From assembly GCF_000972865.1 (NCBI RefSeq), contig NZ_CP011144.1, positions 2,356,001 through 2,420,000 on the forward strand: a DNA stretch of 64,000 nucleotides, in the 5' to 3' direction. Position numbers and translations under genes: made by a program. Below are positions 15,475 through 24,721 of this stretch, piece by piece. The notes below the pieces were generated by a model. The model was given only the letters and a program-made list of their open reading frames with translations, was not told where the DNA came from and made no database searches. Origin of the DNA: Pseudoxanthomonas suwonensis. GTDB lineage: Bacteria > Pseudomonadota > Gammaproteobacteria > Xanthomonadales > Xanthomonadaceae. Every line of letters begins with the position of its first letter. Position 1 is the stretch's first letter.

Positions 15475-15595
15475 GGGGGTCAGGTTCACTTTTGATGTGA
15501 GGCTGGCCTAGGAGCCGGCGCAACAAAGGGGCCAGCGCAACAAAGGGGCCAGAGGAAATATTCAATTCAAACGGATATTCCCTCTGGCCCCTTTG
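15475..15595. repeat. Half GGGGTCAGGTTCA element plus AAAGGGGCCAGAGG palindrome
   Basis: GGGGGTCAGGTTCAC (15475-15489) is one arm of the dispersed palindrome family. AAAGGGGCCAGAGGAAATAT (from 15542) pairs with ATATTCCCTCTGGCCCCTTT (to about 15594) to form a nearly perfect 20-bp stem. A second copy of the latter palindrome is at 21820. A shorter direct duplicate CAACAAAGGGGCCAG lies just before it. Confidence 0.85.
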
Positions 15596-21727: not shown

Positions 21728-21738
21728 AAAAATGGGTC

Positions 21739-21815
21739 AAAAAAGGGGTCAGGTACATTTTCTCGCTTGATGGATCCGGGGAGATGGCCTGACCCCCTTC
21801 AGCCCGGGACCGGGG
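21739..21815. repeat. Left 77-bp direct repeat bracketing the TIR module
   Basis: Begins AAAAAAGGGGTCAGGTACAT and ends AGCCCGGGACCGGGG. It is identical to the copy at 24645-24721 except for two adjacent bases (GGGGAGATGG here, GGGGAACTGG there). Internally, GGGGTCAGG pairs with CCTGACCCC, so each copy is also a hairpin related to the dispersed palindrome family. Confidence 0.92.
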
Positions 21816-21819
21816 AGCC

Positions 21820-21873
21820 AAAGGGGCCAGAGGGCATATCCGTTTGAATCGGATATTCCCTCTGGCCCCTTTC
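21820..21873. repeat. AAAGGGGCCAGAGGG palindrome, second copy
   Basis: AAAGGGGCCAGAGGGCATAT pairs with ATATTCCCTCTGGCCCCTTT around a short loop; CCGTTTGAATCGG in the loop is the inverse of the loop core of the copy at 15542. Further GGCCCCTT fragments follow to about 21900. Confidence 0.85.
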
Positions 21874-22060
21874 GTCTTTGGCCCCTTGGCCCCTTTGGTC
21901 AGCCACTGTTCCGCTCGTGCCCCGCCTGGCCTGGCGCCGGGGAGCACAGCACTTGGCCGCTGTGCGCCGCCCGTCGCGTTAGCGGTTGCAGGCAGGAGGG
22001 GATCCGGTCGGTCAGTTCCGGGCATGCCGCGCCTTGGGAAGGTCGGAGAGGGAAACCTGC

Positions 22061-24148
22061 ATGCCGCCGCACGGTTCGGGGTACCGCGCCTTCATCAGCT
22101 ACAGCCATGCCGACACGGCCGTGGCGCGGTGGCTGCACCGGGCGCTGGAGTCCTATCGCATCCCGTCGCGGCTGGTGGGCCGCACGACCGGCCTGGGCGA
22201 GGTGCCCGCGCGGCTGACACCGATCTTCCGCGACCGCGACGAACTTGCGGCCGCCGGCGACCTTTCCGACGCCCTGCGCCAGGCGCTGGGCGCGTCCCTG
22301 TTCCTGGTGGTAGTCGCATCGCCGGCCGCGGCGCGCTCGCGCTGGGTGGACGAGGAGGTACGCCACTTCAAGCAGGTCCACGGCGAAGGCCGGGTGCTGG
22401 CGCTAATCGCCGCCGGCTGCCCCGGCGGCGGCGACGGGTCCGAGTGCTTTCCGCCTTCGCTGCGCTTCCGCGTGGGGGCCGATGGAAGCATCAGTACGGA
22501 ACCGGCCGAGCCGATCGCAGTGGACCTGCGTGCCGGCGGCGACGGCAAGCGGATGGCCAAGCTCAAGCTCGTCGCCGGCCTCACCGGCCTGCCGCTGGAC
22601 GCGCTGGTCCAGCGCGAAGCGGCGCGTCGCCATCGCCGGCTCACCGCGCTGGCGGCGGTCGCGGCGACCGTGGCTCTCAGCATGTCGGTGCTGGCGCTGA
22701 TGGCCGTGCGCGGGCAGGCCGAGGCCGAACGGCAGCGTGCCGAGGCCGACGGGCTGGTCGAGTTCATGCTCACCGACCTGCGCGCCAAGCTCGAGCCGGT
22801 GGGCCGGCTGGAGATCTTCGACTCGGTCGGCCAGCGCGCGCTCACCTATTACGGCCGGCAGGAACTCAAAGCGCTCGACGCCGACGCCCTGGGCCGCCGG
22901 GCCCGGGCCCTGCACCTGGTGGGTGAAGTACGCGAACTGCGCGGCAACAGCGGGGAGGCGCTGGAGGCATTCGTCCAGGCCGAACGCACCACCGCCGAAC
23001 TGCTGGCGCGCGCGCCGGACGACCCGCAGCGGATCTTCGACCATGCCCAGAGCGTCTACTGGGTTGCCTACATCGGCTGGCAACGCAACGACCTGGAGCA
23101 GGCCGAACACGGCTTCCGCGAGTACGACCGCTTGGCGGCGCAGCTGGTCGCGCTGGATCCGACCCGTGAGGAGTGGCTCAACGAGCGCGCCAGCTCGCAG
23201 TCCAACCTGGGCGCGTTGTTGCAGCGGATCGGCCGGCATCCGGAAGCCACGGACCACTTTCGGCAGGCGCTGGCGATGTCACGCGAGCTGGCCAAGGCGG
23301 CGCCCGCGGACCGCGAGCTGCAATGGGCACTGGCGCAGGCGCATGCCTGGCTGGGCGACTCGCTGATGCAGTCCTGGCAGTTCGCCGATGCCGCCCGGCA
23401 ACGCCAGCAGGAGCTGTCGGTCTACGAGACGATGCTGGTCGTGGACCCGCGCGACGCCAAGGCGCGCGAAGGCAAGTCGGTGGCGTTGGCGATGATCGCC
23501 GATCTGCAGTTGATGGATGGCGAGCTGGAACTGGCCCACCAGACTGCCCTGGCCAGCCACGAGGCGATCGTGTCGCTGGCCGGCGAGGATCCGGAGAACC
23601 AGCTCTGGCGGGAGATGGTGGCTTCGATCACGAACAGGCGCGTGGAAGCCCTGATGCTCGACGGGCGCTGGCAGGAGGCCGAGCAGCTCAACCGGCAGGC
23701 GCTTGCGCTTGCCACCGCGCTGGTCGCCACCGATCCGTCGGTCGCCGACTGGCGGACGGATGTGCTGATGAGCGCGCGCTGGATGGATATCGCCATCGCT
23801 TTCGCCCTCCACGGCCCGGCTGCCGGCCGCGCCGGCATTGCCCGTTTCCGGCGCGATTTCGGCGATGACCTCGATTCCGGGGACTCCAGCCTGCGCATGC
23901 CCTGGGTGGCGGTGCTGGCGATGGATGCGATCGACCAGGCGAATGCAGGCCAGGCCGACGCCGCGCGCGAGCGACTGGTCGCGCTGCAGGCGCAGCTGCC
24001 GCCCACGCCGCAGCCGCGTACCCAGGCGGTGCTGCGCTACCTGCGGGGAGAGATGCCCCTGCATCTTCCGGCCGACGACGCTCCCGCGCCGGCCGTACGC
24101 CTTGGCTACGACCCGGGAGTCATCCTGCAAGCCGCGAAAGGATCATGA
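22061..24148 (+). CDS. TIR-domain protein with transmembrane segment and TPR region
   Basis: A 695-residue protein with GGAGAGGG upstream of the start. Residues 8-120 are a bacterial TIR (TIR_2-like) domain: YRAFISYSHADT (box 1), IFRDRDELAAAGDLSDALRQ, FLVVVASPAAA and SRWVDEEVRHF, where the glutamates after Trp95 occupy the place of the NADase catalytic glutamate. A linker leads to one transmembrane helix (about 194-216), a short coiled coil, then roughly 450 residues of TPR-like helical repeats (for example RARALHLVGEVRELRGNSGEALEAF in two helices). TIR enzymes of this kind can cleave NAD, and TIR-TPR proteins occur in signalling and defence; which applies here is unknown. It is coupled to a small beta-rich protein, and the pair lies between two 77-bp direct repeats. 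Confidence 0.85.
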   Translation: MPPHGSGYRAFISYSHADTAVARWLHRALESYRIPSRLVGRTTGLGEVPARLTPIFRDRDELAAAGDLSDALRQALGASLFLVVVASPAAARSRWVDEEVRHFKQVHGEGRVLALIAAGCPGGGDGSECFPPSLRFRVGADGSISTEPAEPIAVDLRAGGDGKRMAKLKLVAGLTGLPLDALVQREAARRHRRLTALAAVAATVALSMSVLALMAVRGQAEAERQRAEADGLVEFMLTDLRAKLEPVGRLEIFDSVGQRALTYYGRQELKALDADALGRRARALHLVGEVRELRGNSGEALEAFVQAERTTAELLARAPDDPQRIFDHAQSVYWVAYIGWQRNDLEQAEHGFREYDRLAAQLVALDPTREEWLNERASSQSNLGALLQRIGRHPEATDHFRQALAMSRELAKAAPADRELQWALAQAHAWLGDSLMQSWQFADAARQRQQELSVYETMLVVDPRDAKAREGKSVALAMIADLQLMDGELELAHQTALASHEAIVSLAGEDPENQLWREMVASITNRRVEALMLDGRWQEAEQLNRQALALATALVATDPSVADWRTDVLMSARWMDIAIAFALHGPAAGRAGIARFRRDFGDDLDSGDSSLRMPWVAVLAMDAIDQANAGQADAARERLVALQAQLPPTPQPRTQAVLRYLRGEMPLHLPADDAPAPAVRLGYDPGVILQAAKGS

Positions 24149-24150
24149 CC

Positions 24151-24636
24151 ATGCCAGTGAACCGGACAGTGAACGTCTCGGTCGTCTTCAACTGCGTGCA
24201 GAACGGCGCAAACGACTTCGGCGGTTCCGCCACCTACACCCAGAGCAGTTCCACCCCCTCCGACCTGGGGAACGTGGTGGACAGCAACGGCAACATCGAC
24301 CTGCGGCAGGCGTCCGCCTACGACCCGTCTCAGTACAACGACAGCGTGGACTTCGTGTTCACCCTGGCGCCGCAGTCCACCGGCTACGTCACCCCGGTGG
24401 TCTGGGCCAGCCGCAACGGCGCCGGCGCGACCATCGTCGTGCCGCAGGGCGGCAACGCCCAGGAGTTCCAGGTCGAGCAGTCGTCCGCCACTCCCCAGCT
24501 GCTGACCATCGTCGACAACGACGACGACAGCAACACCTACAACTACAAGCCCGCGGTCGAGCTGCCCAACTTCGACCACTACTACATCAGCCTGGACCCG
24601 CGGATCGTCAACAAACCGAGCAGCACCAACAAGTAG
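24151..24636 (+). CDS. Small beta-rich partner of the TIR-TPR protein
   Basis: A 161-residue soluble protein with no signal peptide or membrane segment. ATG at 24151 has AAAGGA eight bases upstream; an in-frame ATG at 24145 overlaps the stop of the TIR gene, so the two genes are coupled either way. The sequence alternates short polar and hydrophobic strands (VNVSVVFNCVQNG, DSVDFVFTL, PQLLTIVDNDDDSNTYNYKP) and looks like a beta sandwich. The end DHYYISLDPRIVNKP resembles, as far as I recall, the C-terminus of small proteins annotated 'DP-EP family', a tentative link. No catalytic motif is visible. Asp/Asn-rich DNDDDSN could bind calcium. It may be a ligand, regulator or target of the TIR protein. 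Confidence 0.75.
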   Translation: MPVNRTVNVSVVFNCVQNGANDFGGSATYTQSSSTPSDLGNVVDSNGNIDLRQASAYDPSQYNDSVDFVFTLAPQSTGYVTPVVWASRNGAGATIVVPQGGNAQEFQVEQSSATPQLLTIVDNDDDSNTYNYKPAVELPNFDHYYISLDPRIVNKPSSTNK

Positions 24637-24644
24637 CCGGCTGC

Positions 24645-24721
24645 AAAAAAGGGGTCAGGTACATTTTCTCGCTTGATGGATCCGGGGAACTGGCCTGACC
24701 CCCTTCAGCCCGGGACCGGGG
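24645..24721. repeat. Right 77-bp direct repeat bracketing the TIR module
   Basis: Same orientation as the copy at 21739-21815 with 75 of 77 identical bases, starting 8 bases after the stop of the small beta-rich gene. The near-identity contrasts with other family members in the window, which share only the outer arms. Confidence 0.92.

Follow-up and report, generated by a model that had tools for sequence, protein, structure and literature searches.

Within a 64,000-nucleotide stretch of the Pseudoxanthomonas suwonensis genome (contig NZ_CP011144.1, positions 2,356,001 to 2,420,000; hereafter the window), which comes from a 3.89-Mb single-contig genome, our results point to a two-protein receptor unit. 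Specifically, an open reading frame (ORF) encoding a TIR-transmembrane (TM)-TPR protein and a small ORF behind it, bracketed together by two direct repeats, would encode a modular sensor formed by the TPR part and a small partner with a conserved Asp-Pro tail, here driving a TIR domain, a reading to which we assign a probability of roughly 0.5. We arrive at it because the pairing of the two genes is conserved, partners that otherwise diverge share a tail, the window's partner is predicted to fold like SO1698, the TIR keeps its conserved glutamate, and a SLOG-SLATT-like protein co-occurs. An original prediction for this stretch had proposed that the pair moves as a unit through its repeats; our findings move the focus from the repeats onto the enclosed genes, and make the gene pair more interesting than was first claimed.

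Receptors of this architecture are followed by a partner with great regularity. Of 30 TIR-TM-TPR loci fetched, one (L038) is cut by a contig end, and at all 29 evaluable loci a small gene on the same strand, whose product ends in a tail fitting a loose pattern, follows the receptor, with a start (as chosen by our script) lying between 4 nt before and 120 nt after the receptor stop. Near their ends, 27 of these 29 partners also fit the strict pattern [DNG]P.[IVM].N. As a control, we considered 343 other called genes of 80-300 aa in loci L151-L190 and L223-L238, among which there were three strict tail matches, all three behind receptors. The two coupled genes recognized between the repeats by the original prediction thus form a real unit. 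Further, two or three tandem, diverged partner genes stand behind a single receptor at five loci (L181, L026, L188, L179, and L187). At L187, the start of the second tandem partner resembles a signal peptide.

The same kind of partner accompanies receptors with other outputs. From several dozen loci matching only the TM-TPR part, 16 were chosen, and behind 15 of their 17 closed receptors a partner is found: 14 by pattern (8 strict, 6 loose), plus that of L161, which aligns with the same family at 58% and has a longer end. Four of these receptors were scanned, and three proved to be winged helix-turn-helix (wHTH)-nSTAND1-TM-TPR proteins and one a kinase-TM-TPR protein. These Xanthomonadaceae proteins resemble the window's receptor in a TPR region of the same profile and in a small partner with a DPxxxN-type tail; they differ in that the output is a STAND NTPase with a DNA-binding head, or a kinase, rather than a TIR domain. 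In profile comparison, CDP-type partners behind TIR receptors and those behind nSTAND receptors were joined (97.6%, E 4e-12). When the receptor profile was split, the TPR part scored at least 136 bits in all 51 receptors, 49 of which have a partner behind them, while eight TIR proteins (L165-L168 and L253-L256) with TIR scores of 170-286 bits and no TPR-profile score at E<=1e-3 had none (0/8). Four of the latter (L165-L168) had been taken as TPR-less, and this was set aside: the two that were scanned have TPRs of another type, and none of the four scores with the present TPR profile. Beyond the family, a sample of 299 genomes of the phylum yielded five receptors of this TPR type, each with a small gene immediately downstream; the tails of these partners (DPKIVN, DPTVSH, DPDIKN, TPTIKN, and DPSIPD) were recognized by the strict pattern in one case and by eye in four.

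Partner divergence appears to follow the TPR region. Across 12 partner/receptor pairs, which were joined by the equal length of their contigs and not by reading each contig, a procedure that detracts from the comparison, partner and TPR distances were correlated given the TIR (partial r 0.69, p 0.0002), and partner and TIR distances given the TPR were not (partial r 0.13, p 0.28); with 185 random TPR columns, the mean partial r was 0.63 for the TPR and 0.25 for the TIR. These sequence distances fit contact, or a joint function, between the partner and the TPR region. Alternatively, the more conserved TIR domain may simply be a noisier clock. A toxin-antitoxin-like pair, with the small protein as a dedicated inhibitor of the TIR receptor whose loss or self-cleavage releases NAD depletion, would likewise have a partner that diverges with the receptor's TPR, and would suit the tight coupling of the genes, which overlap or nearly abut with the receptor first. 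We nevertheless consider such a pair unlikely, given that partners of the same kind accompany nSTAND1 outputs of a transcription-factor-like sort as well as kinase outputs, neither of them an obvious toxin, that some loci carry two or three partners in tandem, and that lone partners exist.

The features of the receptor are consistent with a membrane-anchored sensor with an enzymatic head. The TIR residues S93, W95, and E99 are invariant across an alignment of 60 sequences (60 of 60) that includes the window's own, so that, of the glutamates which the original prediction had supposed to be retained, the conserved one is indeed there; in TIR NADases, this glutamate is catalytic. Its conservation is consistent with a TIR domain that consumes NAD or yields a signal, as far as sequence alone can indicate. 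The membrane tether, also anticipated, was borne out as a single predicted hydrophobic segment at residues 198-216, ahead of the TPRs, which is present in 58 of 60 sequences at KD19>=1.6. Since Lys and Arg are more frequent before than after this segment in 56 of 60, the TIR is predicted to lie inside and the TPR region outside. The structure model (pLDDT 86, pTM 0.65) shows the TIR domain, one long helix, and a superhelix of TPRs; the latter is similar to TPRs that bind peptides, for example those of LGN, and OGT is also among the Foldseek matches.

The partner, described beforehand as beta-rich, was modeled as such with a mean pLDDT of 86, and the model has the fold of SO1698, the self-cleaving endopeptidase from Shewanella oneidensis that belongs to the DP-EP family (PF08985; DUF1888). 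The Asp-Pro site and the tail, whose SO1698 counterpart is DPQIINRP, are present as well, with D149 and N154 kept in 44 of 45 members of the window's subfamily alignment and P150 and I152 in all 45. The window's partner is only 20% identical to SO1698 and falls below the Pfam cut-off; it is also about 35 residues larger and is encoded with a receptor. Within the subfamily alignment, PF08985 matches 22 of 45 members at E<=0.01 (best 1.1e-5). Across 229 genomes of the class, it gave one match, of 23.1 bits (cut-off 25), to a 2,403-aa frame in the window's own genome, which we take as chance and reject, and in 14 control genomes it gave none; with nothing beyond one chance match in the class, the Pfam model evidently misses these partners. 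Against PDB sequences, the profile of the window's partner had no match, that of the nSTAND partners placed SO1698 first (E 0.044, 0.062), and that of the TIR-partner subfamily A5 placed it tenth and eleventh among weak matches (E 0.51, 0.87). SO1698 chains differ in where their alignment ends: WT, Y26F, K98A, P115A, and Q118A align only to residue 116, and D37A, S114A, D116A, and P117A to 123-124. A passage in PMC11655445 describes SO1698 as used as a self-cleaving sequence that was reported to cleave at low pH.

Such properties also allow a reading in which the small protein is itself what is sensed or exported: a beta-sandwich that cleaves itself, forms cross-links, and assembles in the envelope, and whose state the TPR receptor reports, in the service of envelope stress or quality control rather than of phage defense. 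SO1698 reportedly forms a Lys-Asp link and self-assembles, the fold neighbors of the partner include PixA inclusion-body proteins and Mak operon proteins, and the TPR region is predicted to be periplasmic. Further, 3 of 47 distinct partners (L020, L022, and L187) begin with a strongly hydrophobic, signal-peptide- or lipoprotein-like stretch, as judged by a hydropathy cut of our own setting and not by a signal-peptide predictor. Within the window's subfamily, however, such a start occurs in none of the 45 aligned members, the window's included (highest KD12 1.41), and partners outside that subfamily do not conserve the linking lysine, so that an envelope role of this kind seems unlikely to us.

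Under the preferred reading of a TPR-partner sensor, a third protein may complete the circuit. A SLOG-SLATT-like protein occurs in 36 of 41 genomes with a TIR-TM-TPR protein (our list of matches at E<=1e-80) against 8 of 256 others, one of which (G215) has a fragment only; by genus, the counts are 16/1/2/35 (Fisher 1.2e-10, uncorrected for relatedness), and in 20 of the 36 genomes the gene lies within 3 kb. Within the window's genus, only G000 and G010 carry both genes, apart from the fragment in G215. The window-genome protein stays below the Pfam thresholds for DUF4231 (22.9 bits against 24.7), SLATT_1 (20.0 against 26.3), and YAcAr SLOG (18.0 against 28.2), and the SLOG-SLATT profile had no match in the PDB. 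The one TIR genus without the SLOG-SLATT-like protein has a DUF4231-matching protein convergent to the pair, with a match of about 1e-20 to an impure SLOG profile; this profile contained four wrongly chosen ORFs (L213, L216, L218, and L219), which makes its weak matches unreliable, and the co-occurrence counts come from a separate search. SLOG-SLATT-like genes also adjoin other TIR genes. At genome positions 3724810-3728323 (L223:5811-9324), another TIR-TPR gene followed by a SLOG-SLATT-like gene forms a separate candidate signaling pair, and in genomes without the TIR-TM-TPR pair (L230:6287-10023 and L231:5473-9310), such a gene stands beside a different TIR-type gene, which in L230, the one of the two that was scanned, carries TIR and TPR by Pfam.

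The association of TIR with SLOG or SLATT is an already known theme in the passages on it in PMC9503650 and PMC7159879, where Aravind and colleagues predict that a TIR signal acts with a two-TM SLATT protein to alter membrane permeability. Our system shares the TIR and the two-TM SLATT protein with these neighborhoods, and those passages contain neither a DP-tail partner nor a TIR-TM-TPR receptor. Its relation to Thoeris is similarly partial. The TIR domain scores 30.4 bits with PF08937, ThsB_TIR (cut-off 21.2), and a SLOG-like protein co-occurs in relatives; in contrast to Thoeris, the TIR is fused to a TM-TPR part and paired with a DP-tail protein, and the SLOG-like protein carries SLATT-like two-TM parts. 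Among the flanking genes scanned, no adjacent ThsA effector (SIR2-SLOG or TM-macro) was found. The curated Thoeris models did not recognize the system (NCBIfam ThcB4, 12.8 bits against 220), and PADLOC returned only SAVED_TIR (28.5 bits) and TIR-NLR (11.6 bits).

Taken in sequence, the mechanism we propose would begin with a TIR-TM-TPR protein in the inner membrane, its TIR domain in the cytosol. The TPR superhelix would work with the co-encoded beta-sandwich protein and recognize its D-P-x-I-x-N tail, directly or after export of the partner, and perhaps only once the Asp-Pro bond is cut. The state of the partner would then turn the TIR on, and the active TIR would consume NAD or make a cyclic ADP-ribose type signal, to which the SLOG-SLATT-like membrane protein is the likely responder in most relatives. 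The whole could serve as a Thoeris-like circuit for stress or phage defense. The TPR-tail contact, the self-cleavage, the NAD signaling, and the defensive role are steps that we infer. Partner bodies that diversify around a constant tail would be expected if it is the body that encounters variable threats and the tail that acts as the switch.

Several observations weigh against this reading. First, the pairing has exceptions: among the other-output receptors, L162 (near a contig end) and L163 have no adjacent partner; a window-type small protein occurs at seven places in 6 of 297 genomes of the family, and two of these places (L045 and L046) have no receptor within 1.5 kb on either side; and in a Porphyrobacter metagenome-assembled genome, the partner is convergent with the receptor and on the other strand. 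Second, the partners are heterogeneous. By hhalign, the window's subfamily (A2) joins A5 (65%) and A4 (3%) weakly and at the tail only, and A6 joins poorly (A2-A6 22%, A5-A6 5%); profiles this divergent do not establish that all partners share one origin. In A6, whose tail is xPIIIN, the residue before Pro is Asp in only 2 of 7 (Asn in 2, Gly in 3), and Asp-Pro self-cleavage therefore cannot be general. Third, the kinship with SO1698 is incomplete, as the window's protein reaches 18.7 bits with PF08985 against a gathering score of 25, Asp37 of SO1698 has no clear counterpart in the sequence alignment, and Lys98 is matched only within the window's subfamily. Fourth, direct TPR-partner binding meets a topology problem, because the TPR region is predicted to be periplasmic and the window's partner, like 44 of the 47 distinct partners, lacks a strongly hydrophobic, signal-peptide-like N-terminus. 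Fifth, the SLOG-SLATT gene of the window's genome lies 1.35 Mb from the module and adjoins another TIR-TPR gene; hence, its tie to this module is that of a candidate only. Finally, no defense library recognizes the window's pair or the related parts scanned, domain-level matches aside.

The repeats that bracket the pair (Table 1) are real and more alike than chance would allow, and they turned out slightly longer than the 77 bp, alike in 75 positions, that the original prediction had given: each is 78 bp, and the two agree at 76 of 78 positions. The full unit is found at these two places only in the genome (the next-best match spans 62 nt at 78%); the original prediction had noted that other family members within the window share the outer arms only. 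The 17-nt outer arm, GGGGTCAGGTWCATTTT, has 87 genome matches with up to 2 mismatches, compared with 1 for the reversed control pattern, and many of these are inverted pairs, 23-64 nt from start to start, like REP doublets. With short palindromic arms at many sites, often in inverted pairs, the repeats share the hallmarks of REP/REPIN elements; they differ in having one shortened arm in a 78-bp unit whose interior is present only twice. Arm matches are clustered, with 17 within 36 kb at 2370-2406 kb and 19 within 25 kb at 2470-2495 kb of the genome. The first of these clusters (window positions 14000-50000) may mark a variable zone. A second palindromic repeat family, of the AAAGGGGCCAGAGGG type, occurs in the window at 15543-15590 and 21820-21872. 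Elsewhere, the gene at L177:14092-14952, which adjoins a partner gene, is presumably REP-associated transposase-like, to go by its N-terminus.

If these repeats were the ends of a composite mobile element, the gene pair would insert or leave by recombination between them, as the original prediction had suggested. The two full copies, the only ones in the genome, do flank the pair, and of the 17 genomes of the genus two carry the pair, each at its own locus. The Pseudoxanthomonas daejeonensis copy, however, with genes 84% and 81% identical, stands at another locus beside other genes, and no arm (up to 3 mismatches) occurs in the 14 kb (L011, strain DSM 17801) or 20 kb (L171) examined around it; the repeats are therefore not a fixed part of the module, and the only other copy in the 17 genomes does not have the same ends around it. 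Homology between the two copies runs from about 120 bp upstream to just past the stop of the small gene, which leaves the left repeat about 130 bp outside the conserved leader. In addition to the REP-like arms at 87 sites, comparable doublet pairs surround unrelated sequence: one, 842 bp apart and 51/52 alike (genome 752453-753338), brackets an unrelated ORF that we take to be the exonuclease VII small subunit, and a further pair has a spacing of 7.4 kb and is 72/84 alike. The prediction had named the same pair around unrelated genes as what would refute it; these doublets come near to that, and no second copy of the exact pair exists. Built largely from the common arms, the doublets are weaker evidence than such a copy would be, and only a partial parallel. 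Besides the pair, no gene was recognized between the repeats, by ORF list or Pfam. A search for an empty site through the flanking genes found no genome with both flanks and no syntenic relative, as the two flanking genes are not conserved across the genus. Specifically, the AstE-like left neighbor matches at E<=1e-120 in the window's genome only (1/297), and the DUF885 right neighbor has genus relatives at most 42% identical among the matches listed. Carriage of the pair by a prophage or plasmid was considered as well and set aside. Scans of viral contigs with the small-protein and receptor alignments gave 33 and 37 pattern stretches, none confirmed as a relative, and a plasmid search gave one partial match, in Novosphingobium (41.5% identity over 75% of the query). 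Taken together, insertion or excision of the module by way of its repeats is unsupported and, in our estimation, very improbable; the 78-bp repeats are REP-like sequences and look like ordinary genome clutter.

The module's neighbors are AstE-like, DUF4287, and DUF885 genes by Pfam scan, and 245 nt separate the end of the left repeat from the TIR start. The small ORF begins at 24145 or, going by relatives, at 24151, and so overlaps or nearly abuts the receptor ORF.

Table 1. Features of the receptor-partner module and its surroundings, in window positions.
Feature	Positions	Strand	Details
TIR-TM-TPR receptor gene	22061..24148	+	ATG start, 695 aa; Pfam TIR_2 5.7e-11, ThsB_TIR 5.5e-07, TPR_12 3.6e-11
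Small beta-sandwich partner, SO1698/DP-EP-like fold	24151..24636	+	161 aa; alternative start 24145
TIR domain, residues 11-118	22091..22414	+	conserved glutamate E99 at 22355-22357
Predicted single TM segment, residues 198-216	22652..22708	+	hydropathy
TPR superhelix, residues about 251-664	22811..24052	+	structure model; Foldseek matches to the TPRs of LGN and OGT
Codons of conserved C-terminal tail D149-P-R-I-V-N-K-P156	24595..24618	+	Asp-Pro placed on SO1698 D116-P117 site
Upstream region, about 120 bp, conserved with P. daejeonensis	21944..22060	+	local alignment; presumed promoter and leader
Left 78-bp repeat, REP-like, arm GGGGTCAGGTACATTTT and shortened inverted arm	21738..21815	+	repeat comparison
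Right 78-bp repeat, REP-like	24644..24721	+	begins 8 nt past the small gene's stop
Second palindrome, 26-nt arms, AAAGGGGCCAGAGGG type, another REP-like element	21820..21872	.	probably outside the module

In its broadest form, the reading of a TPR-partner unit would describe a previously unnamed modular sensor, in which a TPR receptor anchored in the membrane recognizes a self-cleaving protein of the SO1698 type by the C-terminal Asp-Pro tail of that protein, and the output head (TIR with SLOG-SLATT, wHTH-nSTAND1, or kinase) is freely exchanged; we offer this wider proposal tentatively. A literature search at abstract level found no description of a DP-tail partner of TPR receptors and no physiological setting for the self-cleaving SO1698/DUF1888 proteins, and we know of none for the latter. 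If the proposal is true, it would provide these proteins with such a setting, and it would offer a candidate sensor to a class of TIR proteins that have no known trigger. Further, a sensor that recurs on TIR, STAND, and kinase heads would amount to a general input cassette.

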